DNA of 22,011 nt. Source: a virus. The stretch spans positions 1 to 22,011 of the IMG/VR virus record IMGVR_UViG_3300047550_005292, one strand, 5' to 3'. Positions 8,259-22,011 of this stretch are shown piece by piece; positions within the stretch are counted from its first letter, which is position 1, and the number at the start of each line of letters is the position of its first letter. The notes beneath the pieces are model-generated. The model did not search any database, was not told the DNA's origin, and worked only from the letters and a program-made list of their open reading frames with translations. The position numbers were made by a program, and so were the translations under genes.

Positions 8259-8927
8259 ATGATTAAGAATGTAATGGCAAGTATCGTAGCAACCGTGATG
8301 TTTGGTGCTGAGGCAATGGCAGATTTTATTGTTGTTAATAATCCAGTAGTTGATACTGTTGGATTCTACTCTGATGCATTTGATTCGAAGGGTGCATATT
8401 CATACGCACAGAGTGGTGCTCAGAGATTTGAACTTGAAGATTCATATGCTACATCATCTATTAAGTGGTGGGGTTCTATGAATGGTTTCAATAATCAAGG
8501 TCTTTCGAATGTGGATTCTTTCCAGATTATTGTTTGGAATTCTGGGTTTGGAACGCAAGTAACAAATCAGACAATTGATATTGTAAATATCACGGCAACT
8601 GCGACAGGAGAAACTAATTTCTTTGGCGAAGCAATCTATGAGTTTTATGTTCCGATTTCATTCCAGATTACTTCAGGTTCATATTTTATGAATATTGGAG
8701 CAAAGTTGAATGACGCTGCTGGTGATCAATTTATTTGGTCGCAGGGTCAAAATGTTCAAGATTTCTGGTTTACGGATGTAAATGGTCAGTATAAGTGGGG
8801 TGATTGGCGACCACTTCCAACATTCATCGGTAATACAGCAGGGGGTGCATTTGTACTATCCGCTCCAACTCCAGGGGCAATTGCTCTTATCGGTATGGCT
8901 GGTCTTATCAGTCGTCGTCGTCGCTAA
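8259..8927 (+). CDS. secreted protein with PEP-CTERM-like sorting tail
   Basis: A 222-residue protein with an N-terminal signal peptide (MIKNVMASIVATVMFGAEAM, likely cut after AMA at 19-21). A middle domain of about 175 residues looks all-beta (many alternating hydrophobic, Thr, Ser and Asn residues, WWGS near 66). A short C-terminal tail follows: SAPTPGAIAL, a hydrophobic stretch IGMAGLIS, then RRRR. This Pro-x-Pro, transmembrane helix, Arg-cluster layout is that of PEP-CTERM domains recognised by exosortase. The PxPGAxAL form resembles tails I recall from Planctomycetes-like hosts. I take ATG 8259, with GGAG 8250-8253 at 5 bases; the in-frame TTG 8238 falls inside the leader hairpin. A strong early-type promoter precedes it. 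It may be a host-derived surface or extracellular protein; role unknown. Confidence 0.8.
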   Translation: MIKNVMASIVATVMFGAEAMADFIVVNNPVVDTVGFYSDAFDSKGAYSYAQSGAQRFELEDSYATSSIKWWGSMNGFNNQGLSNVDSFQIIVWNSGFGTQVTNQTIDIVNITATATGETNFFGEAIYEFYVPISFQITSGSYFMNIGAKLNDAAGDQFIWSQGQNVQDFWFTDVNGQYKWGDWRPLPTFIGNTAGGAFVLSAPTPGAIALIGMAGLISRRRR

Positions 8928-9188: not shown

Positions 9189-10577
9189 TTATGATTTTCT
9201 TAAATAGTAAGGTATTTTTCCTAGATCTTTAATTGGATTCATTCGACCCATTAATTGATCTTTAGCTGATGGTTTTTGCGCGAAACTCATATCAGTAGTA
9301 GCTCTAGGAGCTATAGCTCTAGTACCCTGGGGTAATTTTCTGGCTTTTGCTTCTTCTTCTTTTGCCATTCTATTTGCTAAAATCTCTAATTGATCTTTAG
9401 CTCTTGGTCCTAATGGTGCTGGTGAACCAGATCTCATATTATCTGGATTCATTCGACCCATTAATTGATCTTTAGCTGATGGTCTTGGTGGGAAACTCAT
9501 ATCACCAGTAGCTCTAGGATATTGTTTGTCAAACTCATTCTGGGGTAATGCTCTGGCTTTTGCTTCTTCTTCTGACATTCTTTTTGCGAAAATATCTCCT
9601 ATTTCTTTTCCAAGTTGCTCTCTAGTTTTACCAGCTGTCTTAATATCATAACCAGCATCTTTCAATGCTTTATCCGCAGCAGCATCCCCAGCAGCTCGAT
9701 TTTCTGCCTCAAGATCCATTGGTAGTTTACCACCACGAACTCCCTGGCCTGGTATTATTCTTCCAGCAGAGTCTCTTTCCCAAATATCAGGCATTGTTCC
9801 TGCTTTTATTTGTGCTTCTATACGACCTTCTGGACTATTTGGATTTATATATGGCTTTCTGGGAGCCGATGGTCTTGATTGTGCTTGTTGATTTTCATTA
9901 TCATATTGTGCCTGTAATTCTTTTCTTAATTTTAATTCTGCTGCTTCGACATCAGCATCAGACATTTTATCAACACCAGTAATACCTTTACTTCTTAGAG
10001 TTCTCCTCTTGATATCAAGAACTCCTCTTTTTAGTATTTCTTTATCTAAATCTGTAGATTCAAGTGCATCAATTTCTGTTTGACTCATCCCAAGGTCTAG
10101 TGCTCTTTGTTTTTTTGCTGTATTATATCCCTTTTCATCATCATATTGATAACCGAATCTACCACTACCTTTACCCACACCAAATCCATATTGAGTGGCT
10201 TTTGCCATAAAATCTTTATCATTACGCATTGCTTCAACAGCTGCTTTTCTTTGTGCAAATTTATCAGTTGGGTGGGTTCTAGCAGCATCTCTCATAGCCT
10301 GATTGAATCTATTTTGCAATTCTTGCGTAGTTTTTCTTTTTGCTATATTTTCTTGTTTTCTTTCTTCTCTTCGTTGATCCATTTTTGATCCACCAACTGA
10401 CGCTGACTGATTAAATCCACTAAAATTTGGTTGTGTATTTGCTGTTGATGGGGTGAAAAAATTACCAACGGTCTGAGCAACGGTCTTTAATCCATCCAGC
10501 CATGTACTCGGGTTAAGGATATCGAATTGCTCATTCAAAATGATATAATATTTTTCCGTTAATTGTTTTTTATTCAT
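9189..10577 (-). CDS. probable head-internal protein with capsid-targeting-like leader, 462 aa
   Basis: A 462-residue hydrophilic protein rich in Lys, Arg, Glu, Ala and Gln. The leader MNKKQLTEKYYIILNE ends in L-N-E, fitting a T4 capsid-targeting sequence cut after Glu16 by gp21-type prohead protease. The leader is nearly identical to that of the 16157-16591 gene. Residues 17-50 (FDILNPSTWLDGLKTVAQTV) are amphipathic. The C-terminal part holds a direct repeat of about 70 residues, each ending PSAKDQLMGRMNP. No enzymatic motif is seen. A TATAAATA box lies 21 bases upstream and the ribosome-binding site is AGGAA. It ends at a bidirectional terminator. Likely late, head-packaged and possibly ejected; the exact function is unknown. 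Confidence 0.82.
   Translation of the reverse strand: MNKKQLTEKYYIILNEQFDILNPSTWLDGLKTVAQTVGNFFTPSTANTQPNFSGFNQSASVGGSKMDQRREERKQENIAKRKTTQELQNRFNQAMRDAARTHPTDKFAQRKAAVEAMRNDKDFMAKATQYGFGVGKGSGRFGYQYDDEKGYNTAKKQRALDLGMSQTEIDALESTDLDKEILKRGVLDIKRRTLRSKGITGVDKMSDADVEAAELKLRKELQAQYDNENQQAQSRPSAPRKPYINPNSPEGRIEAQIKAGTMPDIWERDSAGRIIPGQGVRGGKLPMDLEAENRAAGDAAADKALKDAGYDIKTAGKTREQLGKEIGDIFAKRMSEEEAKARALPQNEFDKQYPRATGDMSFPPRPSAKDQLMGRMNPDNMRSGSPAPLGPRAKDQLEILANRMAKEEEAKARKLPQGTRAIAPRATTDMSFAQKPSAKDQLMGRMNPIKDLGKIPYYLRKS
9234..9483 (-). repeat. 40-bp direct repeat, 210-bp period, in the 9189-10577 gene
   Basis: Positions 9234-9273 and 9444-9483 are identical over 40 bases. The period of 210 bases equals 70 codons. 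At the protein level the repeat unit runs from EEEAKAR-x-LPQ through PRAT-x-DMSF to PSAKDQLMGRMNP. The second copy lacks several residues in its linker. It reads as a tandem duplication inside the gene. Confidence 0.85.
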
Positions 10578-10597
10578 ATATTATTCCTATAACTATA

Positions 10598-10605
10598 TAT
10601 TTATA
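10598..10605 (-). promoter_or_regulatory. T4-type late promoter octamer (minus strand TATAAATA)
   Basis: Minus-strand TATAAATA upstream of the 10577 gene. Its start site would be near 10592, giving a 15-base leader with AGGAA before the ATG. The octamer's last base (10605) is the first base of the ATG of the divergent RuvC-like gene, so the promoter and that start overlap. Confidence 0.65.
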
Positions 10606-11156
10606 TGATTATTGCTGGAATTGATTATAGTTTAAATGGACCAGCTATTTGTGTCTTCAAAGGTGATATATTTAATTTTGATAACTGTCAATTTTATTTT
10701 TTAACTGATATAAAGAAATATGCCTGTACCTTTTTTCGTAATATTCATGGTAAATTATTTGAAGACTACAAGGAAGAATGCGAAAGGTACGATACCATAT
10801 CAGAATGGGTAATGAAATCAATATTAGGCTGTGAACAGGTGGCTATGGAGGGCTATGCATATGGCGCACAGGGCAGAGTTTTCCATATAGCCGAAAATAC
10901 TGGAATCCTTAAATATAAGCTCTATCAGGCTTCTATGCCAGTAGAAATTGTTACCCCATCTCATATCAAAAAGATGGCAACTGGTAAAGGAAACGCCGAT
11001 AAGACTCAAATGTATCAGGCTTTTTTAAAGGAAACTGGGATTCCTTTACAGGGAATAATTACCCCTAATAAGAAAGATGTCGGAAATCCAGTTTCCGACA
11101 TCATAGATTCTTATTATATTTGCAAGTATTTATTTCAGCAAATTAAGATTTCTTAG
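10605..11156 (+). CDS. RuvC-like Holliday junction resolvase
   Basis: A 183-residue RNase H-fold nuclease of the RuvC type, expected to resolve branched DNA before packaging. The acidic catalytic residues are visible: Asp7 (GIDYS), Glu82 (AMEGYA), and Asp165 with Asp168 (SDIID). TPSHIKKMATGKGNADK (117-133) matches the RuvC region before the last acidic pair. It is the only + strand gene in the right-hand part. It is divergent from the 10577 gene across 27 bases and overlaps the end of the 11153-11668 gene by 4 bases. No ribosome-binding site is visible before ATG 10605, so translation is weak, leaderless or coupled in an unknown way. A perfect 11-bp inverted repeat lies near its 3' end. Confidence 0.85.
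   Translation: MIIAGIDYSLNGPAICVFKGDIFNFDNCQFYFLTDIKKYACTFFRNIHGKLFEDYKEECERYDTISEWVMKSILGCEQVAMEGYAYGAQGRVFHIAENTGILKYKLYQASMPVEIVTPSHIKKMATGKGNADKTQMYQAFLKETGIPLQGIITPNKKDVGNPVSDIIDSYYICKYLFQQIKIS
11076..11102. repeat. perfect 11-bp inverted repeat inside the RuvC-like gene
   Basis: GATGTCGGAAA (11076-11086) and TTTCCGACATC (11092-11102) pair perfectly around TCCAG. The repeat covers the codons for DVGNPVSDI, which include catalytic Asp165. No T-run follows on either strand. It may be a structure in the mRNA, or a brake between the convergent transcription units that meet at 11153-11156. Confidence 0.75.
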
Positions 11157-11668
11157 TCTTTCTTGTCATCTACAAAACCATCACCATTTTTATCCTCATT
11201 TTTACCTTGCATATAATACCATGCAATACCAAAAATAAGAGTTAGATAGAATAAAATTGCGTACCAATTTATTCTACTCATTTTGATCTCTGTTCCTGGA
11301 GGTAAAACCACTTCTGTCTTGGCATCAATTTTAACTTTAGCTGGATCTGATGTTTGGAGATAGGTATTTTGTGGTAATATTACTTGTGTATTTTTTGGTA
11401 ATATTACTTCCTGTGGTTTTTCTTCTAATATGGTTTTATTTTCTTCTTTTACTATTGCAACAGTATCTTCTTCTAAGGTAACTTCTAATTTTTCATCTGG
11501 ATCTGTTTTGACCCAGGTTCCTTTTGGAATCTCTGCTATAGTATCTTTGGCAACAACAGTGTCTGTATTTTTACTTAAAACATCTGGAGTTGTTTGCATC
11601 ATACTTGTGGTACAAACTGATTTACAAGATGCTAGACAACAAAGTAATAGAATTAATAGTTTTTTCAT
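11153..11668 (-). CDS. candidate unimolecular spanin (lipoprotein with C-terminal membrane segment)
   Basis: A 171-residue protein with a lipoprotein signal (hydrophobic 4-12, lipobox LASC with Cys15). A periplasmic part of about 115 residues follows, with beta-like repeats (VILPKNTQ VILPQNTY, VLPPGTEI). Then come one membrane segment at 134-153 and a charged tail containing DKNGDGFVDD, like an EF-hand loop. A lipid anchor at the N-terminus and a membrane helix at the C-terminus is the topology of u-spanins such as phage T1 gp11, which join outer and inner membranes in the last step of lysis. The gene overlaps the stop of the upstream holin-like gene (ATG 11668, stop at 11665), with AGGAAA before the ATG. 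The function is inferred from topology and position. Confidence 0.72.
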   Translation of the reverse strand: MKKLLILLLCCLASCKSVCTTSMMQTTPDVLSKNTDTVVAKDTIAEIPKGTWVKTDPDEKLEVTLEEDTVAIVKEENKTILEEKPQEVILPKNTQVILPQNTYLQTSDPAKVKIDAKTEVVLPPGTEIKMSRINWYAILFYLTLIFGIAWYYMQGKNEDKNGDGFVDDKKD

Positions 11669-12099
11669 GTTTTATTTCCTGCGGTAGCACTACCAAAATA
11701 GAACCCAACAATCGCTAATAAAATTTGACGATTCTCTTGGGTAAACAAATATCCACTCACTGATTGAAATATTGTCTCTTGAGTTTCTGGAATAAGACCA
11801 AATAAAATTTCTGGATGTGTTTGAACAACTTCAACTACAGTAGGAATTCCAAAAAATGGAAGAACAAATGGAGCAACTATGGTTCCAAATAATATAGCAA
11901 GAACAATTATTTGTCTTACTGCTTTACCAGCATCAACAGAAACTCTTTGAACTGCTTTGTCTTGATTTTCTGTGGTTTGTTTGTTCGCATCTAATAGTCT
12001 TTTAAAGTTTTCTTGTTCTGCTTGGCGTTTTTCTGCCATGTAACGAAAAAGAAATCCCGTTGCTGAACCACCAATTAATGAGATCAATTCTGTCGGCAT
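11665..12099 (-). CDS. holin-like membrane protein, 144 aa
   Basis: A 144-residue protein with three hydrophobic segments: about 4-19 (ELISLIGGSATGFLFR), 62-84 (RQIIVLAILFGTIVAPFVLP) and 125-139 (QILLAIVGFYFGSA). A charged coil-like stretch lies between the first two. The topology resembles three-segment holins that set lysis timing, and the candidate spanin follows directly with a 4-base overlap. AAGGAG lies 7 bases before ATG 12099, within the end of the upstream gene. No endolysin is in the window. An alternative is an unrelated structural membrane protein. Confidence 0.68.
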   Translation of the reverse strand: MPTELISLIGGSATGFLFRYMAEKRQAEQENFKRLLDANKQTTENQDKAVQRVSVDAGKAVRQIIVLAILFGTIVAPFVLPFFGIPTVVEVVQTHPEILFGLIPETQETIFQSVSGYLFTQENRQILLAIVGFYFGSATAGNKT

Positions 12100-12287
12100 T
12101 TTTTTGCTCCTTGTAAAACGATATAATCATCAGGAATATCTTCTGGATTCATTTCTGCTCTTTTGACAGCAAGATCGAATTCTCTTTTAGTCAGCAACAA
12201 TTCAAATTGATATCCATCAGAATTGACATGAGTGCAGAAATAATATTCATCAGATTCGTTGCCTTTTTTGATTTTATTTTTACTCAT
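12084..12287 (-). CDS. small hypothetical protein, 67 aa
   Basis: A 67-residue soluble protein with a Lys-rich start and a compact alpha/beta-like core (YYFCTHVNSDGYQFELLLTK, then REFDLAVKRAEMNPEDIPDDY). No known motif is seen. AGGAA lies 5 bases before ATG 12287, and its last 16 bases overlap the start of the holin-like gene, so it belongs to the same transcript. Function unknown. Confidence 0.7.
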   Translation of the reverse strand: MSKNKIKKGNESDEYYFCTHVNSDGYQFELLLTKREFDLAVKRAEMNPEDIPDDYIVLQGAKKCRQN

Positions 12288-12326
12288 TGTATTCCTATTA
12301 TGAATGTGTAAAGAGTAATGTATATT

Positions 12327-12878
12327 TTAATAAGGGTCATTTGATGTTCCTATTCTTAGATAAATTGGATTTTTTCTTCGTTTTAATTTTTTCATTCTTT
12401 TCAGATGTGCTATTTGATTTACAATGGTTTCATCTGGATTTCCACGAGCACCAACAATACCACCACCAGAAACAGAATTTGCAATCATATCCTCATTTAG
12501 AGAATTTAATGCTTCATCTATATTCAATCCATTTTCTATTAAAAATTCTGAAATATCATTGAATACTATGTCTGGATTTGCTCCATACTGTTCTGTTTCT
12601 TCAACAAAAAGAACAATGGCTGAAGTTAAATATTTCAGCCTTGCTTTGATCATTGGATCTGGAATTTTACCTAAAAGTTTTTTGAGATTAATTATCAATC
12701 TATCATATGGATTTATTTTTTTAGGATCTATTATGAAGTTTCCTTTTTTATCAATTTCGCCACGATCAAATGATTTTAATTCTGTAAATGGTGTGGTTAT
12801 ATCTTTGATAAATTTATATACTGTAAATGAAGTAACTACTTTGCTTAATTCTCTTGTAGTTGTTCTTCGTTTCTTCAT
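12327..12878 (-). CDS. conserved hypothetical phage protein, 183 aa
   Basis: A 183-residue protein. The N-terminal part (residues 20-50, VYKFIKDITTPFTELKSFDRG, then EIDKKGNFI) and the helical centre (LIINLKKLLGKIP) resemble a family of unknown function I recall from T4-like marine phages. The C-terminal part has a glycine-rich SGGGIVGARGNP loop followed by a basic RMKKLKRRK stretch. No catalytic motif is seen. AAAGGAG lies just upstream of ATG 12878, which overlaps the previous gene's TGA in an ATGA arrangement. A virion role is plausible from context only. Confidence 0.78.
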   Translation of the reverse strand: MKKRRTTTRELSKVVTSFTVYKFIKDITTPFTELKSFDRGEIDKKGNFIIDPKKINPYDRLIINLKKLLGKIPDPMIKARLKYLTSAIVLFVEETEQYGANPDIVFNDISEFLIENGLNIDEALNSLNEDMIANSVSGGGIVGARGNPDETIVNQIAHLKRMKKLKRRKNPIYLRIGTSNDPY

Positions 12879-13252
12879 TTTATCTCCTTTAATTTTCTCA
12901 AGATATTTTCATCAAGTTTAATTTCATTCAATTGAACTTCTGGTATAGAATTTGGTAAGTAATTCAAATATACAAAAATAGATTTCAAATAAGAGTGTAG
13001 TTCTTTTGGTATCTTATAAAAAAGAATTCTAACACAAGCTTCTGCCCCAAACATATTTTGCATTACTATGATATGGTTTAGTAAAAGTCTTGTCTTTAGA
13101 ATTCTTGTTTTTTTATATTTTAACAGAAGTCTTTTGATATATTTTATCCGAGATATATCTTCCTGAAATTCTTCAATCCCAGTACAATAGGGATTGCTAT
13201 ACATTTTCATTGCATAAACCAAAAAGGTATTGTTTGTTAAACAATCTTTCAC
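12875..13252 (-). CDS. conserved hypothetical phage protein, 125 aa
   Basis: A 125-residue mostly helical protein. The block FLVYAMKMYSNPYCTGIEEF, then KYIKRLL...LLLNHIIVMQNMFG, is like a conserved T4-like marine phage protein of unknown function. The start is uncertain: GTG 13252 keeps the conserved N-terminal block complete but has no ribosome-binding site, and ATG 13210 would cut it. An AATAAATA box (13268-13275) would give a leader of about 10 bases to GTG 13252. It overlaps the next gene by 4 bases. Confidence 0.72.
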   Translation of the reverse strand: MKDCLTNNTFLVYAMKMYSNPYCTGIEEFQEDISRIKYIKRLLLKYKKTRILKTRLLLNHIIVMQNMFGAEACVRILFYKIPKELHSYLKSIFVYLNYLPNSIPEVQLNEIKLDENILRKLKEIK

Positions 13253-13266
13253 AAGTTAATTTTTAA

Positions 13267-14214
13267 TTATTTATTCTTACCCTTGAGTTTTCTTACTTCT
13301 TGTCTTAATTGAGCTAATCTTGCGGCTCTTCTTTCTTTTACTGATTTACCACCTCTACCAGCAGCCTTAGCCATCTTATCAATTCTACTTACATCAGATT
13401 GACCCTCTTGACCAGTTAAAGCTTCTGCTTCTAATATTTGTCTTGCTAAACCTTCGGCTAGTATTGCTTTATCGTTTTGAGAAAATTCTACACCCAATCT
13501 TTTGGATGCTCTTTCAACTACGAAATTTACTTTCTGATCAAATTCTTCTTCTGTGATTTGATTGTTTTCCATTTTTTCATAAAGATTTAGTGCAATTGGT
13601 TTTAAAACATTTTCAGAGAAATCTTCATCCGAAGCCATAAAATTAAAGACGCTTTCTGCTGTCATTTTTTGATTTACTGGTGTCATAACTGTTACTCGCA
13701 TTGTTGAATCTGGAACTAAATTAATACCATCGAAATAAAATCTTCCTGATTGATCTTGTTGTAGATTCATTGTCAAAGAAACATTGGTGTAATCTTGACC
13801 ACGATCAAAACCATCTTTCATTAAATTTGTTGTCGGTGTAGTACCAAATTTTTGACCAAAACGGGTAAGTTTAAATTCTAATGGACCAACACTTAATTCA
13901 ATATTTCTATTAAATTCAAAATCAAGACCAAGATGATTTAAACGAACTTTAAGACCATAAAGAATCTGTCTAGGATCTTCATGAATTCCAGAAAGATAAG
14001 TGTAGATCATTGAGTGAATCTGATCTAATTCATGAGACTGAATACTCTTTGTTGATTTGAAATCTGATCTATTTTGATGAACAGTTCCAAATGAACCATG
14101 TTTGGTTGGATCTGTTATACCTTTACCTGTAAAAATTGGAATCTTTTCAGCATCTGACATTTTACCGATAGTATCTTCAGCTGTTTCATTGATTCTAGTT
14201 TTAAATGTTTTCAT
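13267..14214 (-). CDS. probable head-internal protein with capsid-targeting-like leader, 315 aa
   Basis: A 315-residue protein. The leader MKTFKTRINE ends in I-N-E after ten residues, very like the ten-residue T4 IPIII capsid-targeting sequence that ends F-I-A-E. The middle (about 70-200) has alternating beta-like strands (LDFEFNRNIELSVGPLEFKL), and the last 60 residues are strongly basic (GRGGKSVKERRAARLAQLRQ). No enzyme motif is seen. AGGAG lies 6 bases before ATG 14214 and an AATAAATA box sits upstream, giving a compact late unit. It probably is a head-packaged, DNA-binding virion protein; the family is unknown to me. Confidence 0.8.
   Translation of the reverse strand: MKTFKTRINETAEDTIGKMSDAEKIPIFTGKGITDPTKHGSFGTVHQNRSDFKSTKSIQSHELDQIHSMIYTYLSGIHEDPRQILYGLKVRLNHLGLDFEFNRNIELSVGPLEFKLTRFGQKFGTTPTTNLMKDGFDRGQDYTNVSLTMNLQQDQSGRFYFDGINLVPDSTMRVTVMTPVNQKMTAESVFNFMASDEDFSENVLKPIALNLYEKMENNQITEEEFDQKVNFVVERASKRLGVEFSQNDKAILAEGLARQILEAEALTGQEGQSDVSRIDKMAKAAGRGGKSVKERRAARLAQLRQEVRKLKGKNK
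13268..13275 (-). promoter_or_regulatory. late-promoter-like AATAAATA
   Basis: Minus-strand AATAAATA, one base from TATAAATA, located just at the 3' end of the 13267-14214 gene and upstream of GTG 13252. A start near 13262 is predicted. It shares its form with the boxes before the 14214 and 19797 genes, which raises its credibility. Confidence 0.4.
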
Positions 14215-14228
14215 ATATTCTCCTGATG

Positions 14229-14236
14229 TATTTATT
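14229..14236 (-). promoter_or_regulatory. late-promoter-like AATAAATA
   Basis: Minus-strand AATAAATA followed 14 bases later by ATG 14214. The predicted start near 14223 leaves a leader that begins at the ribosome-binding site AGGAG, the same geometry as the exact TATAAATA box at 9000-9007. It overlaps the last codons of the 14235-15299 gene. Confidence 0.5.
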
Positions 14237-15299
14237 ATTGTTTTTCGCTTCTTTGGCGATCTATCTTTGATAAGGCTGAACGAATACTCTTTTGTCTTGC
14301 TTCTTTATCTGATTTACTCTTTGCTAATCTTGCCTCTCTCTTTTGGGTTGCTTTGCTCTTGTCCTTTTTCTTTTTACTACGAACGCTAGAAACACCGTCA
14401 AGAGTAAGTTTTGTCGCTGTGGCCCATATCATCTCTTCTACTGTTTTGGCTGGATCACCAGGTGATGGATCAGATAAACTAAATCCTCTTTTTTTATAGG
14501 ATTTTATAAGTTTCTGTCCAAGTTTTCTTTTTGTTGCCATTTGTGCTTTAGTCAAATAGCTTCTATTTGGATGGTTTCTCGGAATTCTTTTTCTTTCACT
14601 ATGTGGATTTTTATTTCTTGTTTCTTTATCAATAAACCATGGAGATCCACGCTTTTTCTTTCCTTCTTTTTCTAGAATAACTTCATCTTCGCATGGGCAT
14701 CTATCTTCCATTGCTAATTTTTTAGTATAACCGTAATATATTTCTTCACCACGATCTTTTCCATATTGCTTGATAAATGGTGCTTTTGATATTTTTTTAT
14801 GAAGTTTTTTCTCTTCACTTTTTTCACCAGGCAACATTTTTCTTTCAGATATTCTAATTTTTTTCGCTCTATCCTTTGCTGCTTGAACCCTAGCACTATA
14901 TCTTCTTAAAAAACCAGCATCCGCATCTGGAGTATTTTCTGCGGCTTGTAATTCTTGAGATGAAGGTACTGACCCTGTTTGTGATGATGGTTTTCCTACT
15001 TCGGCTCCAATTGAACCCGAAGTATTCATAGCATCTATAACAGGATCTAATGTCCCAAAAGTGCTAGATGGTACTTTATTGTTTTCTTCTCTAGCATCGG
15101 CAAACGAAGAAAGTTGTTTGATTACTGTTCCATAATCTTTTTCGATATCTTCAGACTCTTTATTTTTTCTTTGTAGCATTGTATCATAACGCCTGTCTTG
15201 CATAGCAATATATTCCTCTGCATCTCTTCTCAATCGTTCAATGTCATCATTTTCACCAGGCAACATTTTTCTTTCAAATATTTTGATTAGATTTTTCAT
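14235..15299 (-). CDS. probable head-internal basic protein with repeated leader motif, 354 aa
   Basis: A 354-residue, highly basic protein. The leader MKNLIKIFE ends in I-F-E. The block ERKMLPGE at residues 9-16 recurs at 152-159, again after an (I)-x-E site (ISE, 150-152). A third such site is ILE at 208-210, before a KEGKKKRG segment. These sites split the chain into an acidic and mixed first part, a short linker and a very basic C-terminal part (SVRSKKKKDKSKATQKREAR), which suggests processing by the prohead protease. No catalytic motif is seen. AAGGA precedes ATG 15299. Likely a late packaged protein. Confidence 0.8.
   Translation of the reverse strand: MKNLIKIFERKMLPGENDDIERLRRDAEEYIAMQDRRYDTMLQRKNKESEDIEKDYGTVIKQLSSFADAREENNKVPSSTFGTLDPVIDAMNTSGSIGAEVGKPSSQTGSVPSSQELQAAENTPDADAGFLRRYSARVQAAKDRAKKIRISERKMLPGEKSEEKKLHKKISKAPFIKQYGKDRGEEIYYGYTKKLAMEDRCPCEDEVILEKEGKKKRGSPWFIDKETRNKNPHSERKRIPRNHPNRSYLTKAQMATKRKLGQKLIKSYKKRGFSLSDPSPGDPAKTVEEMIWATATKLTLDGVSSVRSKKKKDKSKATQKREARLAKSKSDKEARQKSIRSALSKIDRQRSEKQ
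14821..15276 (-). repeat. 27-bp direct repeat, 429-bp period, in the 14235-15299 gene
   Basis: Positions 14821-14847 and 15250-15276 are identical over 27 bases and encode the two ERKMLPGE motifs. The bases on either side diverge quickly, so only the protease-site-like module is duplicated. Confidence 0.88.
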
Positions 15300-15308
15300 G
15301 GTTGTTCC

Positions 15309-16151
15309 TTAATCTATTTTTTCCCAGGTTCCACCGTGCTTTTTGTACCATTTTGATGCCCAAGCATTCGCGTAGGCACTTGGATATACATCAAACTTTG
15401 CCTTGGCAGCTGCTATTGCTCTTCCCCATAATTCTGGATCAGATGCTTTGTTTTTATATTTTTTTCTTCTTCTTCGTTTTTCTAATAATAAACTAGCTAA
15501 ACTATATTTAGTATTTTCTTTGCATACTCTTCCAGCTGGACACGGGGCGGTTGAACCTTTTGGTCCTGCCCATAATTTCTTACATGCCCAATACTGTGCT
15601 GATAATTTAGATTTCTTTTCACCACACTTATGTCTGGCTCTGAATGATTTTCTGGCAGCTGCTGAATAATTATGACCATAACCTTTAGCACCAAAGTGTA
15701 CTAATTTTTCAGCACCACCTTCACAGGCTTTGACCATCATTTTTTTACCTGGTCTTGTTGATCTTCTTGGTTTATTACAAGGCATCGATGCTTTTGCTAC
15801 TGCCTCTGCAATCAACGAGTGAATTTTATTTTCTTTCAATTCAGTAACTCCTGTTTTGACAAAAACTGGTTTCATTCCTTTACCACCAGCACCTTTTTCT
15901 CCACGACCAGATTCTTTTTGTGCTGCTCTTTTTCTCTTTACAAATGATGCTATTTTTTTCTTACCTAAACGTCTTGCTTTTTGCTTTGATAAACAGGCTG
16001 AATAAGAACTTCCTTCTTTTGCATCACCACATTTACCAACTCTTTTACCTTCAGAGTTATAACGATCCCAACCTGGTTTCTTGGTTGCTGTTTCCCCGTG
16101 AAACCATCTACCTAATCCAGACTTTCGATAAACTTCATTTATAAATTTCAT
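15309..16151 (-). CDS. three-domain basic head-associated protein (DUF5872/DUF6321-like)
   Basis: A 280-residue, very basic protein with a six-residue leader MKFINE. Domain 1 (about 11-95) starts GLGRWFHGE and has Cys41 and Cys53, like DUF5872. Domain 2 (about 120-210) includes KACEGGAEKLVHFGAKGYGH and RKSFRARHKC, like DUF6321. Domain 3 (236-278) has DPELWGRAIAAAKAKFDVYP and YKKHGGTW, a tail found in many phage proteins. Family names are from memory. (L/I)-x-E sites lie exactly between domains: LIAE at 113-116 and LLLE at 221-224. I take ATG 16151; a TTG at 16160 is in frame. It follows the 16157-16591 gene by 5 bases. Probably packaged in the head and cut into parts. Confidence 0.82.
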   Translation of the reverse strand: MKFINEVYRKSGLGRWFHGETATKKPGWDRYNSEGKRVGKCGDAKEGSSYSACLSKQKARRLGKKKIASFVKRKRAAQKESGRGEKGAGGKGMKPVFVKTGVTELKENKIHSLIAEAVAKASMPCNKPRRSTRPGKKMMVKACEGGAEKLVHFGAKGYGHNYSAAARKSFRARHKCGEKKSKLSAQYWACKKLWAGPKGSTAPCPAGRVCKENTKYSLASLLLEKRRRRKKYKNKASDPELWGRAIAAAKAKFDVYPSAYANAWASKWYKKHGGTWEKID

Positions 16152-16156
16152 TTTGA

Positions 16157-16591
16157 TCAATTACTTTTTAATCCTTGTCTTATTGTATCTAAATCTTGAG
16201 GATTTAAATAACTTTTACTTGCGACTCTTGCCTTTGGTATATTAGAAGCTGTTTTTAATAAATTTGTTACGAGTGGATTTGTTGCAATTTTAGATACAGT
16301 TGGATTTGTTGCAATTTTTCCTATTTTTGATCCATATATTCCTGCTTTAGCAAAATCACCAAATACTGGCAATACACCAAGTGCTCTTAAAGATGCATTT
16401 ACTAATTGTTCTTTTCTTTCTGCTTCATCATCAGAGGTAAAATATCTACCTAAAGAAATTGCTGTATTAATTCCAGAGGTAATTGGAGTTGGGTCTGCTA
16501 AATCAGCAACATCAAGAACAGTTTGAGCTGTATCAAGAAAACTTTCATTTAGAATCTTATAATATTTTTCTGTTAATTGTTTTTTATTCAT
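16157..16591 (-). CDS. probable head-internal protein sharing the MNKKQLTEKYY leader, 144 aa
   Basis: A 144-residue protein with leader MNKKQLTEKYYKILNE (cut expected after Glu16), nearly identical to the leader of the 9189-10577 protein. The mature part is helical and fairly hydrophobic, with glycine- and alanine-rich stretches (VLDVADLADPTPITSGINTA, ALGVLPVFGDFAKAGIYGSK). A short tandem repeat follows (KIATNPTVS KIATNPLVT). The composition recalls membrane-active or pore-like proteins, and injection into the envelope would be possible, but this is inference. The gene starts one base after the stop of the 16593-18650 gene and is co-transcribed with it. Confidence 0.78.
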   Translation of the reverse strand: MNKKQLTEKYYKILNESFLDTAQTVLDVADLADPTPITSGINTAISLGRYFTSDDEAERKEQLVNASLRALGVLPVFGDFAKAGIYGSKIGKIATNPTVSKIATNPLVTNLLKTASNIPKARVASKSYLNPQDLDTIRQGLKSN

Positions 16592-16592
16592 T

Positions 16593-18650
16593 TTAATGCT
16601 TGCCTCTATTATGAGATTTATCTACTGCTTTTAGATTATCAACTGAATTATTTTGTGGATTGCCATCTTTATGATCAACATCCTTACCATCACCCTTTCG
16701 CACTTTACCGAGTCGCATCATCTTTCTTCGGGCCAAAACTCTTTTTGAACGATTTGATCTTTGCTCTGGCTTTGAGTGATATTCATCATATTCTTTACGA
16801 TAATTTCTTTTTCTTCTTTCTAATAAAGTTTTCATGAAAGAAAATGATTCAGTCATATCTTCCAAATCATTTGGTGGAAGCTGATCAATCTGAACTGGTA
16901 TTTGGAACATTTTTCCGTTTACTTTAATGAAATTCTTTTCTGAAGAATAATCAATCGCTGCTGCACCAAATAAATCTATTGGTGTTATAGTAATTTGATT
17001 TGGTGTAAGTGAGAAGATATTCATTAAATCTTGAATAGTTTCTGCTGACTCTAAGATCTGCATGAAATCACCTTGAACAGTTCCAGGATCTTCTTGCTCA
17101 AAAAGATATCTTAATGGAGAGTGTGTAAATTTGCTTTCGTTTAAGAAAGAGGATATCAACATACGAATGGCATATTTCTTTGGTGTTGATGCTTTAGGAC
17201 ATTTTCCACCAAATCTGGCTTTGCATATTTCAAGATCTGTTTTTTCGTCTGGAGATTCAAATAGATTTGATTTTAAATTGAATGTTATTTTATTATTGTC
17301 ATCGTCTGTGATTTTTCTTACAAAATCTAAATCAAGACCACGCATAGCCACATCATATGAGTTCGGAGTGACAGCTATTATTCCAGAAGCAAATCCAGGA
17401 GAACCAGGACTGAACTTTACATATCCAGTAAGAGATTCAAATAGGTAATATTCTTTATACAGAATGTTTGAATTTATTACTCTTTCTATTTGTCTGGAGA
17501 TATCATCTACTATTTTTTCTATTTCTTTTATTGGGTTTTGATTTTTTTGTGGGAATTGATTTGGTCTAAGAATTTTTTCATCTATCTTTTGTATTGCTAT
17601 TTTTTTGATGAATTTAATATCATTTTGTAATTTTTCAACAGCATTTAATTCTTTCTCATCAAATTCTTGTTCTAGACCAACTGGTTTATTTAAAATTAAT
17701 TGATCTATTAAATTAATCGTAGAATAAAATGTTGTCTCTGTGTCATTATTTAATTTACCATTAATTATAGATGATGGGCCATATTTAATTGTGAATGAAT
17801 ATGAAGTCTCTGATGGAGAAACACCAGCTTTTATACACTCACAATTTTCTTTTTGGCATTTTTCATTCTTACCAGAAGCTTCTACACAGATATGTCTGAA
17901 TACTATATTTGCTTTTGGGGTGGAATCATATCCACCCATTTTCTTCCAGAGATCTGTGGTCTGGAATGGTTGCTCATCAATCATTACAGGAACATATTCA
18001 GATATATCACGACCTATAACATTTTTAAAATAGAATTTTATTTGAGAAGCAATCTTATTTGAAACTTCTTGAATTTCCATTGAGGAGTTATATTCTTCAA
18101 GTTGCTCTGGAGTTACTCCCATTTTCTGTAACTGAGCACCCTGCATACCAGCCATCATACCAAGTGCTATTACTGGCCCAGATACTTTATTATTTTTTGT
18201 GAATGGAATTTCTTTTTTGGGTGGTGGTGTTGAACCAGATAGAGGTCTTTGTGCTTCTTCTCCACCCTGTTTTGATCCAGATTCCTGGGGAGGTGCTTGT
18301 TTTTCTTCTTTTTCTTGTTTTGGTTGATTTGCTTTCACATCACCGAATAGTCTTTTAGAAGTCTCAGTCTGTACAAACTTTGGATCTTTTAAAATACCAG
18401 AAATTGTAGATTGATTAATTTCTTCTGGTGAAATTAATATTTCATGGTATCTGGGATCGTATGATTCTTTATCAATAATTAATATTTCACCGTTTGATTT
18501 ATTTTTAACAACCAAAATCATATCAAATGGATTGGTTTGACGAGTAACATTCTCGCGTTCTCGTTGTCTTCTTTTGCGTAAACGAGCACCCAATCTTTTG
18601 TCTTGTGGGGATGCTTCTGTTATATTTAATAGTTGTTTAAAATATTTCAT
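16593..18650 (-). CDS. large head-associated protein with C-terminal HNH nuclease domain, 685 aa
   Basis: A 685-residue protein. The leader MKYFKQLLNITE ends in I-T-E. A basic region (23-35) and a Pro/Gln/Glu-rich linker (105-150) precede a large domain (about 150-600) of unknown fold with a cysteine cluster (CQKENCEC near 265). The last 80 residues (606-685) begin MKTLLE and hold a basic segment and an HNH motif: DVDHKDGNPQNN with His660, Asn668 and NL at 672-673, then H-x-R at 680-682. The LLE site sits exactly before the HNH domain, so protease cleavage could release it. A TATAAATA box and a terminator lie directly upstream, so the gene has its own late promoter, perhaps leaderless. Confidence 0.85.
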   Translation of the reverse strand: MKYFKQLLNITEASPQDKRLGARLRKRRQRERENVTRQTNPFDMILVVKNKSNGEILIIDKESYDPRYHEILISPEEINQSTISGILKDPKFVQTETSKRLFGDVKANQPKQEKEEKQAPPQESGSKQGGEEAQRPLSGSTPPPKKEIPFTKNNKVSGPVIALGMMAGMQGAQLQKMGVTPEQLEEYNSSMEIQEVSNKIASQIKFYFKNVIGRDISEYVPVMIDEQPFQTTDLWKKMGGYDSTPKANIVFRHICVEASGKNEKCQKENCECIKAGVSPSETSYSFTIKYGPSSIINGKLNNDTETTFYSTINLIDQLILNKPVGLEQEFDEKELNAVEKLQNDIKFIKKIAIQKIDEKILRPNQFPQKNQNPIKEIEKIVDDISRQIERVINSNILYKEYYLFESLTGYVKFSPGSPGFASGIIAVTPNSYDVAMRGLDLDFVRKITDDDNNKITFNLKSNLFESPDEKTDLEICKARFGGKCPKASTPKKYAIRMLISSFLNESKFTHSPLRYLFEQEDPGTVQGDFMQILESAETIQDLMNIFSLTPNQITITPIDLFGAAAIDYSSEKNFIKVNGKMFQIPVQIDQLPPNDLEDMTESFSFMKTLLERRKRNYRKEYDEYHSKPEQRSNRSKRVLARRKMMRLGKVRKGDGKDVDHKDGNPQNNSVDNLKAVDKSHNRGKH

Positions 18651-18655
18651 ATTAT

Positions 18656-18663
18656 TATTTATA
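18656..18663 (-). promoter_or_regulatory. T4-type late promoter octamer, likely leaderless start
   Basis: Minus-strand TATAAATA is followed by five bases (ATAAT) and then ATG 18650. With the T4 late geometry the first transcribed base would be the A of the ATG. No ribosome-binding site fits in between. The terminator just upstream means this gene needs its own promoter. Confidence 0.65.
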
Positions 18664-18667
18664 AAAA

Positions 18668-18691
18668 AACCCCCTCCAATCGGAGGGGGTT
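18668..18691 (-). terminator. intrinsic terminator for the 18706-19797 gene
   Basis: AACCCCCTCC (18668-18677) pairs with GGAGGGGGTT (18682-18691) around AATC. Read on the minus strand the hairpin is followed by a run of T (complement of the A-run at 18663-18669). It lies 15 bases after the stop of the 18706-19797 gene and just before the late promoter of the next gene. Confidence 0.88.
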
Positions 18692-18705
18692 CTTCCGATC
18701 AATTA

Positions 18706-19797
18706 TTAGGCCAACGGATCATTTGGATACGCTGTAATGTCATAATTTCCATATAATTTAATATTTGGTGTATCTGTTCCTACAGAATTTCTAATTGTAA
18801 GTGTTGCTATTTCAAGATTATTATTTGATGTTGTGGCTAGTATTGCTTTATCTGGATAAAAACTACCACTAGTTATTACTGAAGTAGTGCTTGGATCATT
18901 AAAATTAATTGTTCCATTTTGTATGGATAAAGTTTCTATAAATGTTTCGTGGTATGAGTTTACAATATTTGAATTGGAATTTCCTCCACCCTGTATCCCA
19001 ATATTTAAATTATTAAATAATGTATATGGGAGATCTACAGGATTTGAACCAGAAACACCAGTTTCTAATAAATTCATATTCAAGGCATTTCCTGATAAAA
19101 ATATGATATGTTCTCCCTGAAAGCCTTGGGAAATATTTATTGTCGGAGATCCAAAAAAGTATGCAGTAGAAATGTTAGTAATATCCTCACCATTTTCTGC
19201 AAAATTTCTCGGTGTTACTGTTGTATGATTGAAATAGAATTCATCATTTGAATTACCATTTAGACATGCATAATAAGCGTTTGAATCATACCCATATATT
19301 TTTGCATATGTTGTATATGCTACCTGTGGTACTTGAATTTGCCACGCAGTACCTTTGAAATAATACTTAACTCCTGTTGCTTTTGCTTTTACATTAACAA
19401 ATGCATTTCCATCAGCACCACAAATACCAGCAGGATCTGAAACTATATCAATATATGCTAGTGTATATCCAGAAGAATTTCTATTTAAATCTATTTCTTT
19501 GGCATAGAATTTAAAATAATTTGAAGAAGTTCCAATATCTTTATTGAAATCTTCTCTCACTTGTAATGTAGCCAATTGAACGGCTAGAGTTCCACCAGAA
19601 GTCCCCGATAGAAATCCTTGAGGTCCAAATATAGGAAATGTTGAAGGATATTTTGCTAAAATTACATCAGAACCATCTACTGGCTTTGAAGCAGCTGATG
19701 CTGGTAGTGTTACACCTGAACTTGGACCCCATAAAGACCAGTTATTTGCATCTTGAACATTAGAGCTTACTTTACCTGTCCAGTAATATGTTGCCAT
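18706..19797 (-). CDS. beta-rich virion or fibre-like protein, 363 aa
   Basis: A 363-residue protein starting MATYYWTGKVSSNVQDANNW, a WTG...NW opening common at the start of phage and adhesin beta-structure proteins. The rest is rich in Asn, Ser, Thr and Gly with short alternating hydrophobic strands (ISQGFQGEHIIFLSGNALNM, IETLSIQNGTINF), as in beta-helix fibres or decoration proteins. No leader of the (L/I)-x-E kind is present. GGAG before ATG 19797 and an AATAAATA box give a late unit, closed by its own terminator, so it is monocistronic. A host-binding or capsid surface role is inferred; a catalytic motif is not seen. Confidence 0.75.
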   Translation of the reverse strand: MATYYWTGKVSSNVQDANNWSLWGPSSGVTLPASAASKPVDGSDVILAKYPSTFPIFGPQGFLSGTSGGTLAVQLATLQVREDFNKDIGTSSNYFKFYAKEIDLNRNSSGYTLAYIDIVSDPAGICGADGNAFVNVKAKATGVKYYFKGTAWQIQVPQVAYTTYAKIYGYDSNAYYACLNGNSNDEFYFNHTTVTPRNFAENGEDITNISTAYFFGSPTINISQGFQGEHIIFLSGNALNMNLLETGVSGSNPVDLPYTLFNNLNIGIQGGGNSNSNIVNSYHETFIETLSIQNGTINFNDPSTTSVITSGSFYPDKAILATTSNNNLEIATLTIRNSVGTDTPNIKLYGNYDITAYPNDPLA

Positions 19798-19816
19798 TTA
19801 ATTCTCCGTTTAGTAT

Positions 19817-19824
19817 TATTTATT
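19817..19824 (-). promoter_or_regulatory. late-promoter-like AATAAATA
   Basis: Minus-strand AATAAATA overlapping the stop of the 19820-20233 gene. The start is expected near 19811, leaving a leader of about 14 bases with GGAG before ATG 19797. One base differs from the T4 consensus. Confidence 0.45.
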
Positions 19825-20233
19825 TTCTTTTATTTTTTCTACTGGACAGATTTTGCAATCTCTTAGATTCCCCACGAATCACAGCTGGCATGATTCTTTT
19901 TACCATCCTATTCAGGGCTGGTTTTCTCTTTTGTATTACAGCATCAATTCTGGCTCTGGAAGAGTATGATAATTTTTTCCAATTACCCTTGAATAATTTT
20001 TTTCTAAATGCAGCCTTTACTTCGTTATAGGCTCTCTTTTTAAGGGCTGGCGTTTGTTTTCTTCTTCGTTCTCTTAGTTTTCTAAGAAATGCTCTTCTTT
20101 TTGCGGTTCTTCTGGCTGCTCTGGCTAATTTCATACGGGTCTTAGCCTCAACCACCTCAAAAAGATATTCTTTAGAGGAATTTAAAAATTCCTTCATTTC
20201 TTCTTCGGAAAACCAATTTTCATTTAAAAACAT
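19820..20233 (-). CDS. very basic head-associated protein, 137 aa
   Basis: A 137-residue protein. The short leader MFLNE ends in L-N-E, and a second site YLFE lies at 23-26 before VVEAKTRM. From residue 30 it is dominated by Arg and Lys (RAARRTAKRRAFLRKLRERR), then KRAYNEVKAAF and a tail MPAVIRGESKRLQNLSSRKN. This matches a conserved DNA-binding-like virion protein I recall from T4-like marine phages, with no known activity. Removing the first 26 residues would strip the acidic part and leave a pure polycation, as expected for a protein that binds packaged DNA. A TATAAATA box sits five bases before ATG 20233. Confidence 0.82.
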   Translation of the reverse strand: MFLNENWFSEEEMKEFLNSSKEYLFEVVEAKTRMKLARAARRTAKRRAFLRKLRERRRKQTPALKKRAYNEVKAAFRKKLFKGNWKKLSYSSRARIDAVIQKRKPALNRMVKRIMPAVIRGESKRLQNLSSRKNKRK

Positions 20234-20246: not shown

Positions 20247-20592
20247 ATTGCCAGGGTATTTCCCCGATAAATTTATATTTCTTATATTGTTTTCTCTTAC
20301 CAGCAATCATTTCATACATTGCGGCTCGTTTCAGATCACGCTTTTTGCAGAAATCATACATGTTATCGACAAAGTGAATTCTACCTTCTGGGTCTTCAAA
20401 TATGAATTTTCTTCTTACCGTAGTTGGTTTTGGTATTTCTCTCCATGTAAATTCTCTTTTCTCAGAAATAAATTCACCACCAAATTGTTCTATAAACTTG
20501 GTTCTAAAGAATTTACTCTGAGCATCATCATTACATTTAACCCATGTTTGTGAATATCTCTTATTTACATCTTCAAGCTTCAATCGAATCAT
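20242..20592 (-). CDS. hypothetical protein with NUMOD-like DNA-binding tail, 116 aa
   Basis: A 116-residue basic protein. The C-terminal 45 residues (FVDNMYDFCKKRDLKRAAMY, then EMIAGKRKQYKKYKF) have the spacing of the short helix-turn-helix modules (NUMOD type) found beside HNH and GIY-YIG homing nucleases. No nuclease domain is present here, so it may be a free DNA-binding remnant or regulator. The N-terminal half (RYSQTWVKCNDDAQSKFFR) is unknown. GAGGTGA precedes ATG 20592, which lies 20 bases inside the end of the exonuclease gene, so they are coupled. Function unproven. Confidence 0.72.
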   Translation of the reverse strand: MIRLKLEDVNKRYSQTWVKCNDDAQSKFFRTKFIEQFGGEFISEKREFTWREIPKPTTVRRKFIFEDPEGRIHFVDNMYDFCKKRDLKRAAMYEMIAGKRKQYKKYKFIGEIPWQL

Positions 20593-21265
20593 TACTCACC
20601 TCTTTGAATTTTTCAATAGTTCTTTTCAAATCTCCTACAAAATTAACCGTCTTTTCTGAAAAGACTTGCATTATTCCTTCTTCAGAAGCCAGGAATATAG
20701 AGAAGTCGTTTATTTTTTCACCAGTTCTTTCCTGCCACATCAAACAATAAGCAGTTGCCTGTAGAAAGTAATTCTGAATATCTCTGGCATCTTTTGGTCT
20801 TGTACTTCCTTTAAAGTCGATGACTTTGATTTTACCTTCATGTAAACCAATACAATCTACTCTACCAGCAAGACCTAATTTAGTACTCCATAATGGAGTT
20901 TCTAGTGCGTAGATTTCATCTAACTCATCAACCTTTGGTTTCATCAAATAAAATAAATCTTGAGTTTTATGATCTAGTTCTTTTATTTTTAAATCTTTAC
21001 CTAAGATATAATCCTCTACAAGAGAATGTAATTGAGTTCCCCTTTTACATACTCTATCGGATTCTTTTTTATTTTGAATTCTCCAAGACTCAAAAAATAA
21101 TCTTTTCTCCCAACCAACAACGGTGGTTACAGATGGAAAAATACCGTCAGGTGTGGAATAGATTCTTATATTTTTCTCTTCCACACTTCTGACGGTATTA
21201 TCAGATTCTATTAATTTTAATTTAAACTTTTTTCGGTCCACGCATTTTACCTTTAATAATTTCAC
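20573..21265 (-). CDS. PD-(D/E)XK exonuclease, MGME1/RecB-like
   Basis: A 230-residue nuclease of the PD-(D/E)XK fold, like the MGME1/Cas4-RecB single-strand exonucleases carried by T4-like marine phages. Visible are SVTTVVGW (45-52), the conserved His80 in RGTQLHSLVE, Asp137 in GRVDCIG, Asp150 and Lys152 in VIDFKGS, and QATAYCLMW (169-177). There is no Cys cluster for an iron-sulphur centre. The start is uncertain: GTG 21265 has AAGG close by, and GTG 21241 has AAAGG eight bases upstream; neither is ATG. It overlaps the end of the 21222-21551 gene. A long inverted repeat lies within the first third of the gene. Role: trimming DNA ends in recombination or repair. Confidence 0.85.
   Translation of the reverse strand: MKLLKVKCVDRKKFKLKLIESDNTVRSVEEKNIRIYSTPDGIFPSVTTVVGWEKRLFFESWRIQNKKESDRVCKRGTQLHSLVEDYILGKDLKIKELDHKTQDLFYLMKPKVDELDEIYALETPLWSTKLGLAGRVDCIGLHEGKIKVIDFKGSTRPKDARDIQNYFLQATAYCLMWQERTGEKINDFSIFLASEEGIMQVFSEKTVNFVGDLKRTIEKFKEVSNDSIEA
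21140..21199. repeat. long inverted repeat inside the exonuclease gene
   Basis: Left arm 21140-21158 (AATACCGTCAG then GTGTGGAA) and right arm 21179-21199 (TTCCACAC, two unpaired T, CTGACGGTATT) give a 19-base-pair stem with a two-base bulge and a 20-base loop. In the minus-strand mRNA it lies 66-126 bases downstream of GTG 21265. Such a stem is unusual in an AT-rich coding region. Confidence 0.8.
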
Positions 21266-21553: not shown

Positions 21554-22011
21554 TTATCTTTCTCTTCTGTTTCCTGGATTAGTTAATAAATTATAGCCAT
21601 AACCAATTAAATCTTCTCTAGATTTACCAGAGGCAGAACTACCAAATTCTTGATTACCTAGTGCAGCTAAGTTACTTTTAACACTAATAAAATATGGATT
21701 TAGATTGAAATGATGTGGATCTGTTTGTGGTGTAGATACTGAACCTAATACTGGGATTGGTATCAATGGTATAATTGGTTTAATTGGTTTAATTGGTTTA
21801 ATTGGTTTTGGTGGTTGTGGTTTTGGTGGTTTTGGTGGTTTTGGTGCTGGAGGTGGGGGGGGTGGAGGAGATACTGGAGCTGGAGCTGGTGATGGTGCTG
21901 GTGATGGTGCTGGTGATGGTGCTGGTGATGGTGCTGGTGATGGTGATGGTGCTGGAGCTGGTGATGGAGCTGGTGATGGTGCTGGAGCTGGAGCTGGTGA
22001 TGGTGCTGGTG
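21554..22011 (-). CDS. partial protein with long proline-rich tract (5' end beyond window)
   Basis: The frame that ends at the stop at 21554 is open without interruption to the window edge, so at least 152 codons are present and the start lies beyond 22011. A TTG at 21766 is only an internal codon. Reading from the edge, about 50 residues alternate Pro with Ala or Ser (PAPS units). Then come a poly-Pro patch, PPK units, four KPI units, and a globular-looking tail of about 70 residues (IPVLGSVSTPQTDPHHFNLN, LIGYGYNLLTNPGNRRER). Proline-rich stretches of this kind act as stiff spacers in surface and TonB-like proteins. The tail is not recognised. It could be a virion structural protein. Confidence 0.75.
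   Translation of the reverse strand, partial: PAPSPAPAPAPSPAPSPAPAPSPSPAPSPAPSPAPSPAPSPAPAPVSPPPPPPPAPKPPKPPKPQPPKPIKPIKPIKPIIPLIPIPVLGSVSTPQTDPHHFNLNPYFISVKSNLAALGNQEFGSSASGKSREDLIGYGYNLLTNPGNRRER
21773..22011. repeat. in-frame tandem microrepeats encoding Pro-rich spacer
   Basis: Four perfect copies of the 9-mer AATTGGTTT (21773-21808) are followed by GGT-rich triplets. Irregular arrays of GGTGATGGTGCT and GGAGCT-type units then run to the window end. All units are multiples of 3 and keep the minus-strand frame (KPI, then PAPS and PAPA). Copy number is likely variable by slippage. The array may continue past 22011. Confidence 0.9.

Follow-up and report, generated by a model that had tools for sequence, protein, structure and literature searches.

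Leader-bearing modular proteins, putative head cargo of a marine T4-like phage, and their exchange at predicted prohead protease sites

The window analysed here, the whole 22,011-base uncultivated virus record IMGVR_UViG_3300047550_005292, carries a cassette of genes whose products, made late, we consider to be probable internal proteins of the head of a marine T4-like phage. In this explanation, leaders of the T4 type are extended to modular polyproteins cut by a prohead protease: the proteins would be drawn into the prohead by an N-terminal leader of few residues that closes with (L/I)-x-E, and an S77 (gp21-type) prohead protease would cut after the leader Glu. Because the same sites lie between modules, we read the longer proteins as polyproteins, which would be cut between their modules inside the prohead. 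The products would be small, mostly basic DNA-binding or enzymatic pieces (modules M1, M2, M3 and M4, and an HNH module, M5) that would remain with the DNA and probably be ejected along with it. Since leader and cargo can be separated, recombination at the cut site would let lineages exchange one cargo for another, gain new cargo or fuse cargoes. The sites are conserved and recur inside the long proteins, late-type boxes precede four of the leader families, cargo is exchanged at the Glu codon, and in one relative the protease and the cassette occur together; from these observations we infer the cleavage, packaging and ejection of the window's own proteins, and their functions.

The UvsX protein of the window is 60% identical to that of Methylophilales phage Melnitz and 58% identical to that of Pelagibacter phage HTVC008M. 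Since the records of both phages are annotated as Kyanoviridae, we take the window to belong to a T4-like phage of the broad Kyanoviridae kind. The genes of relatives were called in 256 related contigs with a simple gene caller. Genes of the window are named below by their lower coordinate (Table 1), and slashes mark predicted cuts.

Conserved leaders and internal sites

An earlier, sequence-only reading had listed seven N-termini of unrelated proteins as T4-type leaders. All seven open reading frames are present on the minus strand with the N-termini as quoted, and six of them open with a leader of about 6–20 residues ending in (L/I)-x-E. The exception is MFLNE of gene 19820, which is not conserved: it becomes MYIDKN in one relative (G005) and MENRW in another (L210). 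The conserved site of this family is LFE at residue 26, where LFE, LTE or LNE is kept immediately before the basic domain. N-terminal leader lengths are 6–16 residues, and 26 for gene 19820. Nor are all of the proteins unrelated, as genes 9189 and 16157 have an apparently copied leader (see below) and their products are weakly similar to about residue 76.

The bare motif is not enriched. Within residues 1–20, [LI]xE was found in 9 of 29 window genes, compared with 3 of 29 and 11 of 28 in control stretches, and in 16–33% of genes per relative, close to the control stretches. The claim that non-virion genes do not open this way does not hold strictly either, as the exonuclease carries LIE at residues 18–20. 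The leader signal is significant only through its conservation. In the family of gene 13267, [LI]xE occurs within residues 3–25 in 28 of 31 distinct homologues, whereas control offsets gave 4/31 and 7/31, and in the N-terminal window of control families the motif was found in 3/45 (RuvC), 2/42 (primase-like) and 6/45 (ThyX) members. The leaders of the 13267 family vary (MKTFKTRINE, MKFNLKQYLAE, MSLFKKLLSRLVE, MKNLTE), and their alignment shows a constant hydrophobic-x-Glu end. All seven listed members of the 9189 family have hydrophobic-x-Glu within the first 27 residues.

Beyond what the sequence-only reading had observed, the long proteins also contain LxE sites of this kind internally, where modules that occur in varied combinations meet. 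We searched for hydrophobic-x-E within 14 residues upstream of each module and counted each distinct context once. The site precedes M1 in 19/19, M2 in 7/7, M3 in 13/13, M4 in 14/18 and M5 in 21/28 distinct contexts; for the five modules combined it is present in 74 of 85, compared with 15–26% for stretches elsewhere in the same proteins. When only internal contexts are counted, the site is found in 10/10 (M1), 4/4 (M2) and 10/10 (M3). The search covered only hydrophobic-x-E; by eye, the hydrophobic residue conserved two positions before Glu is mostly L or I. Within M3 and M5 themselves, sites are rarer than the composition predicts (0 versus 3.3 and 1 versus 9.9 expected, respectively).

In podoviruses, M3 and M5 occur as free-standing genes without a leader. 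The podoviral proteins start with MADKSNMKCNK..., MAKKRNYRQEYDKYQGTPEQ... and MRDYKSEYANYHSKPKQ..., and these starts coincide with the module end that the predicted cut would leave. One free-standing podoviral module gene, HTVC204P gp42, adjoins a gene annotated as a putative internal virion protein.

Three further arrangements were seen in relatives. Contig L168 encodes a 1543-residue fusion of cytidylyltransferase-like, M1, SET and HNH domains (15058-19689, minus strand), and contig G001 a 124-residue mini-polyprotein, MKSFREYLKE/ACWTGYKAVGTKRKGKRQVPNCVPVNE/TAAWTRKEGKNPEGG... (118335-118709, minus strand). In contig G009 (8284-10035, locus L119), an intein-like insert (VYPC...ITGNSAYANGWAA) appears to split the M4 module of a cargo protein.

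Exchange of cargo at predicted cut codons

The closest relative of the window is contig L129, about 89% identical to it at the DNA level. Three differences between the two fall at predicted sites. At gene 9189, DNA homology, which extends over 4.3 kb at 86.7%, breaks off at 10531, within the predicted P1 Glu codon (10532-10530): L129 keeps the leader, and the 446-residue body is replaced by one of 272 residues (288-residue protein) with no convincing similarity to it (best E 0.02). Gene 16157 is absent from L129. Its leader is identical to that of gene 9189 at 42 of 48 nucleotides, whereas only 5 of the 30 nucleotides upstream agree, so that the leader was probably copied; its 49-nucleotide leader is also 92% matched to the leader of L129 at the 9189 locus. 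On the side of gene 15309, homology to L129 begins again with the first base of the Glu codon, at 16136. In gene 14235 an extra stretch lies between two copies of the site with its flank, GAAAGAAAAATGTTGCCTGGTGAAAA, and the 210-residue L129 orthologue has one copy and no such stretch. Judged by sequence comparison, these differences would represent an exchange of cargo, the gain of a gene by leader copying and an insertion at a duplicated site.

Swap breaks were then tested across all contigs, with one best break per gene (87 breaks) and with related events collapsed into clusters (45 breaks). The breaks fell within 6 nt of an LxE end in 35 of the 87 genes (shuffled mean 12.9, with 0 of 2000 shuffles as high) and in 14 of the 45 clusters (shuffled mean 5.5, reached in 3 of 5000), although some members of the list (small membrane proteins) may be coincidences. 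An initial search, in which each gene was assigned whichever of its many alignment ends lay closest, was discarded as biased, because control genes, RecA among them, also scored 0.

Predicted late expression, protease, virion evidence and gene content

Among four leader families, the late-promoter-like sequence WATAAATA lies at most 60 nt upstream in 7/7 (the 9189 family), 16/31, 15/32 and 9/16 members. The corresponding counts in the UvsX, helicase, primase and ThyX families are 0/21, 0/29, 0/46 and 0/47, and the figure for all genes is 8%. The raw count of TATAAATA in the window is unexceptional and not significant (5 versus 2.8 expected); only the placement of boxes relative to gene families is informative. 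The families of genes 14235 and 15309 have no WATAAATA box within 60 nt upstream and are probably read from further upstream. Cassette genes are predicted, from the boxes, to be expressed late from TATAAATA-type promoters.

The relative G001 (153,850 bases) encodes an S77 prohead protease (E 1.2e-35) opening with MKLITETSQDVKFLTE. This single contig carries, besides the protease, a coat protein with QYISE/A before its conserved part, homologues of sigma-55 and gp33, and the cassette. LxE sites occur in the N-termini of coat and protease proteins of relatives (QYISE/A, FLSE/A, MKLITE).

A cytidylyltransferase gene and its neighbours occupy the corresponding locus of the T4-like cyanophages S-SM1 and S-SCSM1, which follows UvsX and helicase and precedes primase and ribonucleotide reductase. 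According to the cited passages, the S-SM1 cytidylyltransferase SSM1_190 (MKKFSAFLNE; T4-GC190) was found in virions by mass spectrometry (PMC3037559), and ORFs 89-93 and 97 of S-SCSM1, of which ORF91 opens with MKSFLQFLKE, are annotated as virion proteins (PMC9602691). The virion table of S-CREM2 lists ORFs 154 (MKNFSSFLTE), 155, 156 (MKKLISE) and 160, and not the neighbours 157-159 (PMC10665884). S-CREM2 ORF160 is a mosaic, with a C-terminal module homologous to modules of the window's clade (best E 1e-21). The S-SZBM1 cytidylyltransferase, reported from virions in the passage cited (PMC9146016), opens with MRFRQFIIE in the genome record.

Table 1. Features of the window
Feature	Position	Strand	Remarks
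Replication and nucleotide genes	up to 8195	+	
Cassette strand	22011 down to 9189	-	
Cargo gene 9189	9189-10577	-	16-residue leader MNKKQLTEKYYIILNE (nt 10577-10530), 446-residue body, net charge +16
RuvC	10605-11156	+	adjoins cargo gene 9189
Cargo gene 13267	13267-14214	-	leader MKTFKTRINE, Glu codon 14187-14185; 315 residues
Two-part cargo gene 14235	14235-15299	-	MKNLIKIFE/RKMLPGE (Glu codon 15275-15273), then IRISE/RKMLPGE (Glu codon 14846-14844)
Three-module cargo gene 15309	15309-16151	-	MKFINE/RWF module (M2), LIAE/CNKP module (M3), LLLE/'DPELW...YPSAYAN' module (M4); first bases of the Glu codons 16136, 15806, 15482
Cargo gene 16157	16157-16591	-	probably copied leader MNKKQLTEKYYKILNE, Glu codon 16546-16544
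Large cargo gene 16593	16593-18650	-	leader MKYFKQLLNITE (Glu codon 18617-18615), 599-residue main part, then MKTLLE611/HNH module
Gene 18706 without leader	18706-19797	-	inside cassette
Basic module M1 gene 19820	19820-20233	-	M1 after LFE26; net charge +37 in 111 residues
Exonuclease	20573-21265	-	
Late-promoter-like box (T4 type) TATAAATA	18656-18663	-	5' of 16593, directly after terminator-like hairpin
Box TATAAATA	5' end 20246	-	upstream of 19820
Box TATAAATA	5' end 10605	-	upstream of 9189
Box AATAAATA	5' end 14236	-	

For gene 15309 the ATG at 16151 was chosen as the start over the TTG at 16160. The predicted pieces of its product carry net charges of +19, +19 and +11, and the HNH module of gene 16593 one of +14. 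M3 of gene 15309 matched phrog_220, a profile named for a minor head protein and DNA pilot (E 5.6e-15), and the C-terminal module of gene 16593 is an HNH_3 domain (Pfam E 1.9e-07). The predicted structure of the 16593 protein (pLDDT 76) has the restriction enzyme MspI as its top PDB match (E 1.4e-3; TM 0.16/0.35, rmsd 12.9), and its central part is also weakly like HinP1I; this weak resemblance is only a lead to a possible nuclease-like core. A TPK-x-D/N-I...S-x-K-x-G-like pattern was noticed by eye in the same central part, resembling Melnitz gene 15 and L168. For the 13267 protein, an AlphaFold model (pLDDT 71) gave no convincing PDB match and a search with the protein as query against phage records gave no match; profile matches to designed helical proteins were dismissed as composition noise.

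Gene 18706 lies inside the cassette without a leader: LxE is absent from the first 25 residues in 3/3 homologues, and the scan gave no family match. Its product is probably a virion surface or fibre protein and not cargo.

Several neighbouring genes were noted in passing. A secreted-looking 222-residue protein (8259-8927, plus strand), encoded after ribonucleotide reductase, has a PEP-CTERM-like tail, APTPGAIALIGMAGLISRRRR, and homologues in L129 and G019. A lipoprotein-like gene, a membrane protein gene (phrog_38283) and a small gene (11153-11668, 11665-12099 and 12084-12287, minus strand) form a trio (11153-12287) that is kept together across relatives and is possibly lysis- or spanin-like. 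A proline/alanine-rich repeat protein (21554-22009, minus strand) runs off the end of the record.

Alternative explanations and known systems

The core idea of the sequence-only reading, that T4-type leaders and a gp21-like protease serve a large battery of cargo, is well supported, because the motif is conserved, late boxes precede four leader families and cargo is exchanged at the Glu codon, and because G001 combines an S77 protease with a coat LxE site and leader-bearing proteins from the same locus are found in cyanophage virions. Not borne out are MFLNE as a leader, the enrichment of the bare motif and the supposed lack of the motif in non-virion genes. A number of observations nevertheless weigh against the prohead-cleaved polyprotein explanation. 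The bare [LI]xE motif is common (about 20% of any 20 residues), without genome-wide enrichment; some M4 and M5 contexts lack the joint site (present in 14/18 and 21/28); and site depletion within M1, M2 and M4 does not go beyond composition. The 599-residue main part of the 16593 protein contains several LxE motifs (YLFE405, FLNE505, YLFE518), which need not all be cut. A search of the 22-kb fragment for an S77 protease found none. The simple gene caller may have placed some start codons in relatives wrongly. For the cyanophage virion lists, the cited passages give no cut ends, and in them the authors caution about possible carry-over in CsCl preparations.

The main competing explanation, which we regard as unlikely, holds that only the N-terminal leaders function, as capsid-targeting signals like those of T4, and that the internal LxE motifs are uncut flexible linkers. 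It would agree with the single N-terminal leader of T4 internal proteins, with the occurrence of LxE by chance in about 20% of 16–20-residue stretches and with those M4 and M5 contexts that have no joint site. Against it stand the site in every internal context of M1, M2 and M3, the podoviral homologues, which start at the module and have no leader, and T4 Alt, which has a further cut towards the C-terminal end, at LTE-619 (PMC5694885). It is very improbable that the leaders are docking peptides for a target other than the prohead (tail, membrane or host), with the Glu motif forming part of an amphipathic helix and no protease site. The leaders are indeed short and amphipathic, an argument from reasoning with no tool result in its favour, but the motif fits the T4 cleavage rule and the coat and protease N-termini of relatives, it recurs internally, the breaks fall at the Glu codon, and no Pfam or PHROG tail family was matched. 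Least credible of all is a chance pattern, with seven N-termini picked by eye from a common motif: the background of about 20%, the unconserved MFLNE (one of the seven) and the control stretch with 11/28 would allow it, whereas the 28/31 conservation in the 13267 family, the near-absence of the motif from control families, and the joint and break-point tests speak against it.

The prohead-cleaved polyprotein explanation has its closest parallel in T4. The T4 leaders, or capsid-targeting sequences (CTS), have 10–20 residues, Alt is cut at ITE-6 as well as at LTE-619, and several core proteins are fragmented by gp21 (PMC5694885); the T4 internal proteins have only the targeting sequence in common, with variable cargo behind the conserved leader (PMC3012670). 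Like IPI, IPII, IPIII and Alt, the cassette genes combine a short leader ending in (L/I)-x-E, late-type promoters and variable cargo; very short leaders have a counterpart in Alt, and an S77 protease is encoded in a cassette-bearing relative. Unlike in T4, the cassette has more proteins, several of which are multi-module with internal sites, and exchange occurs at the Glu codon. No IPI, IPII, IPIII or Alt family was found in Pfam and PHROGs scans of the cassette proteins, which is a weak criterion because the T4 internal proteins are themselves highly diverse; we liken the cassette to them in working, not in common descent of the cargo.

Polyvalent proteins (Iyer et al. 2017, PMC5512222) are phage proteins of several domains, predicted to accompany the DNA into the host. 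They likewise join disparate domains in one polypeptide, as do the three modules of gene 15309, the main part and HNH module of gene 16593, and the cytidylyltransferase, SET and HNH domains of L168. Zincin-like peptidases within the proteins themselves have been proposed as the main means of their processing, joined in some cases by one of assemblin-like type (PMC5512222), whereas Pfam scans of the proteins of the window and its relatives matched no peptidase family. In the giant phages SPN3US and phiKZ, too, many packaged ejection proteins are matured by a prohead protease, several at multiple sites (PMC5694885), and the ejection-protein paralogues gp53 and gp54 have an identical N-terminus (PMC5694885). 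The motif there is A-x-E or S-x-E, and several of the propeptides are longer than 100 residues, in contrast to L/I-x-E and mostly 6–16 residues here. The cyanophage T4-GC190 cytidylyltransferase/NMNAT and its neighbours, found in virions according to the cited passages, share the genomic place and the T4-type leader, although the window has no cytidylyltransferase module; those passages do not discuss leader or internal processing of T4-GC190-type proteins.

The principle of a CTS removed by a prohead protease is already known. The extension proposed here, which may have been described before, lies in cargo built as polyproteins with sites inside them, in its exchange at the codon of the cut and in the large battery of proteins. 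The locus resembles a delivery kit with exchangeable parts, and we lean towards the wider view that marine T4-like phages run polyprotein delivery, in which modules of interchangeable kinds (basic DNA-binding, HNH nuclease, cytidylyltransferase, SET and others), linked through prohead protease sites, would be cut apart in the head, ejected with the genome and traded by recombination at the codons of those sites. If this is true, many 'hypothetical' head-loaded proteins of abundant ocean phages could be recognised and correctly delimited by a simple sequence rule, L/I-x-E at the joint between modules, which also predicts the exact mature ends of each. It would also explain the recurrence of cytidylyltransferases and unnamed proteins in the virions of cyanophages, widen the use of the T4 capsid-targeting leader beyond single proteins to cargo of several parts and reveal natural points of exchange between leader and cargo.

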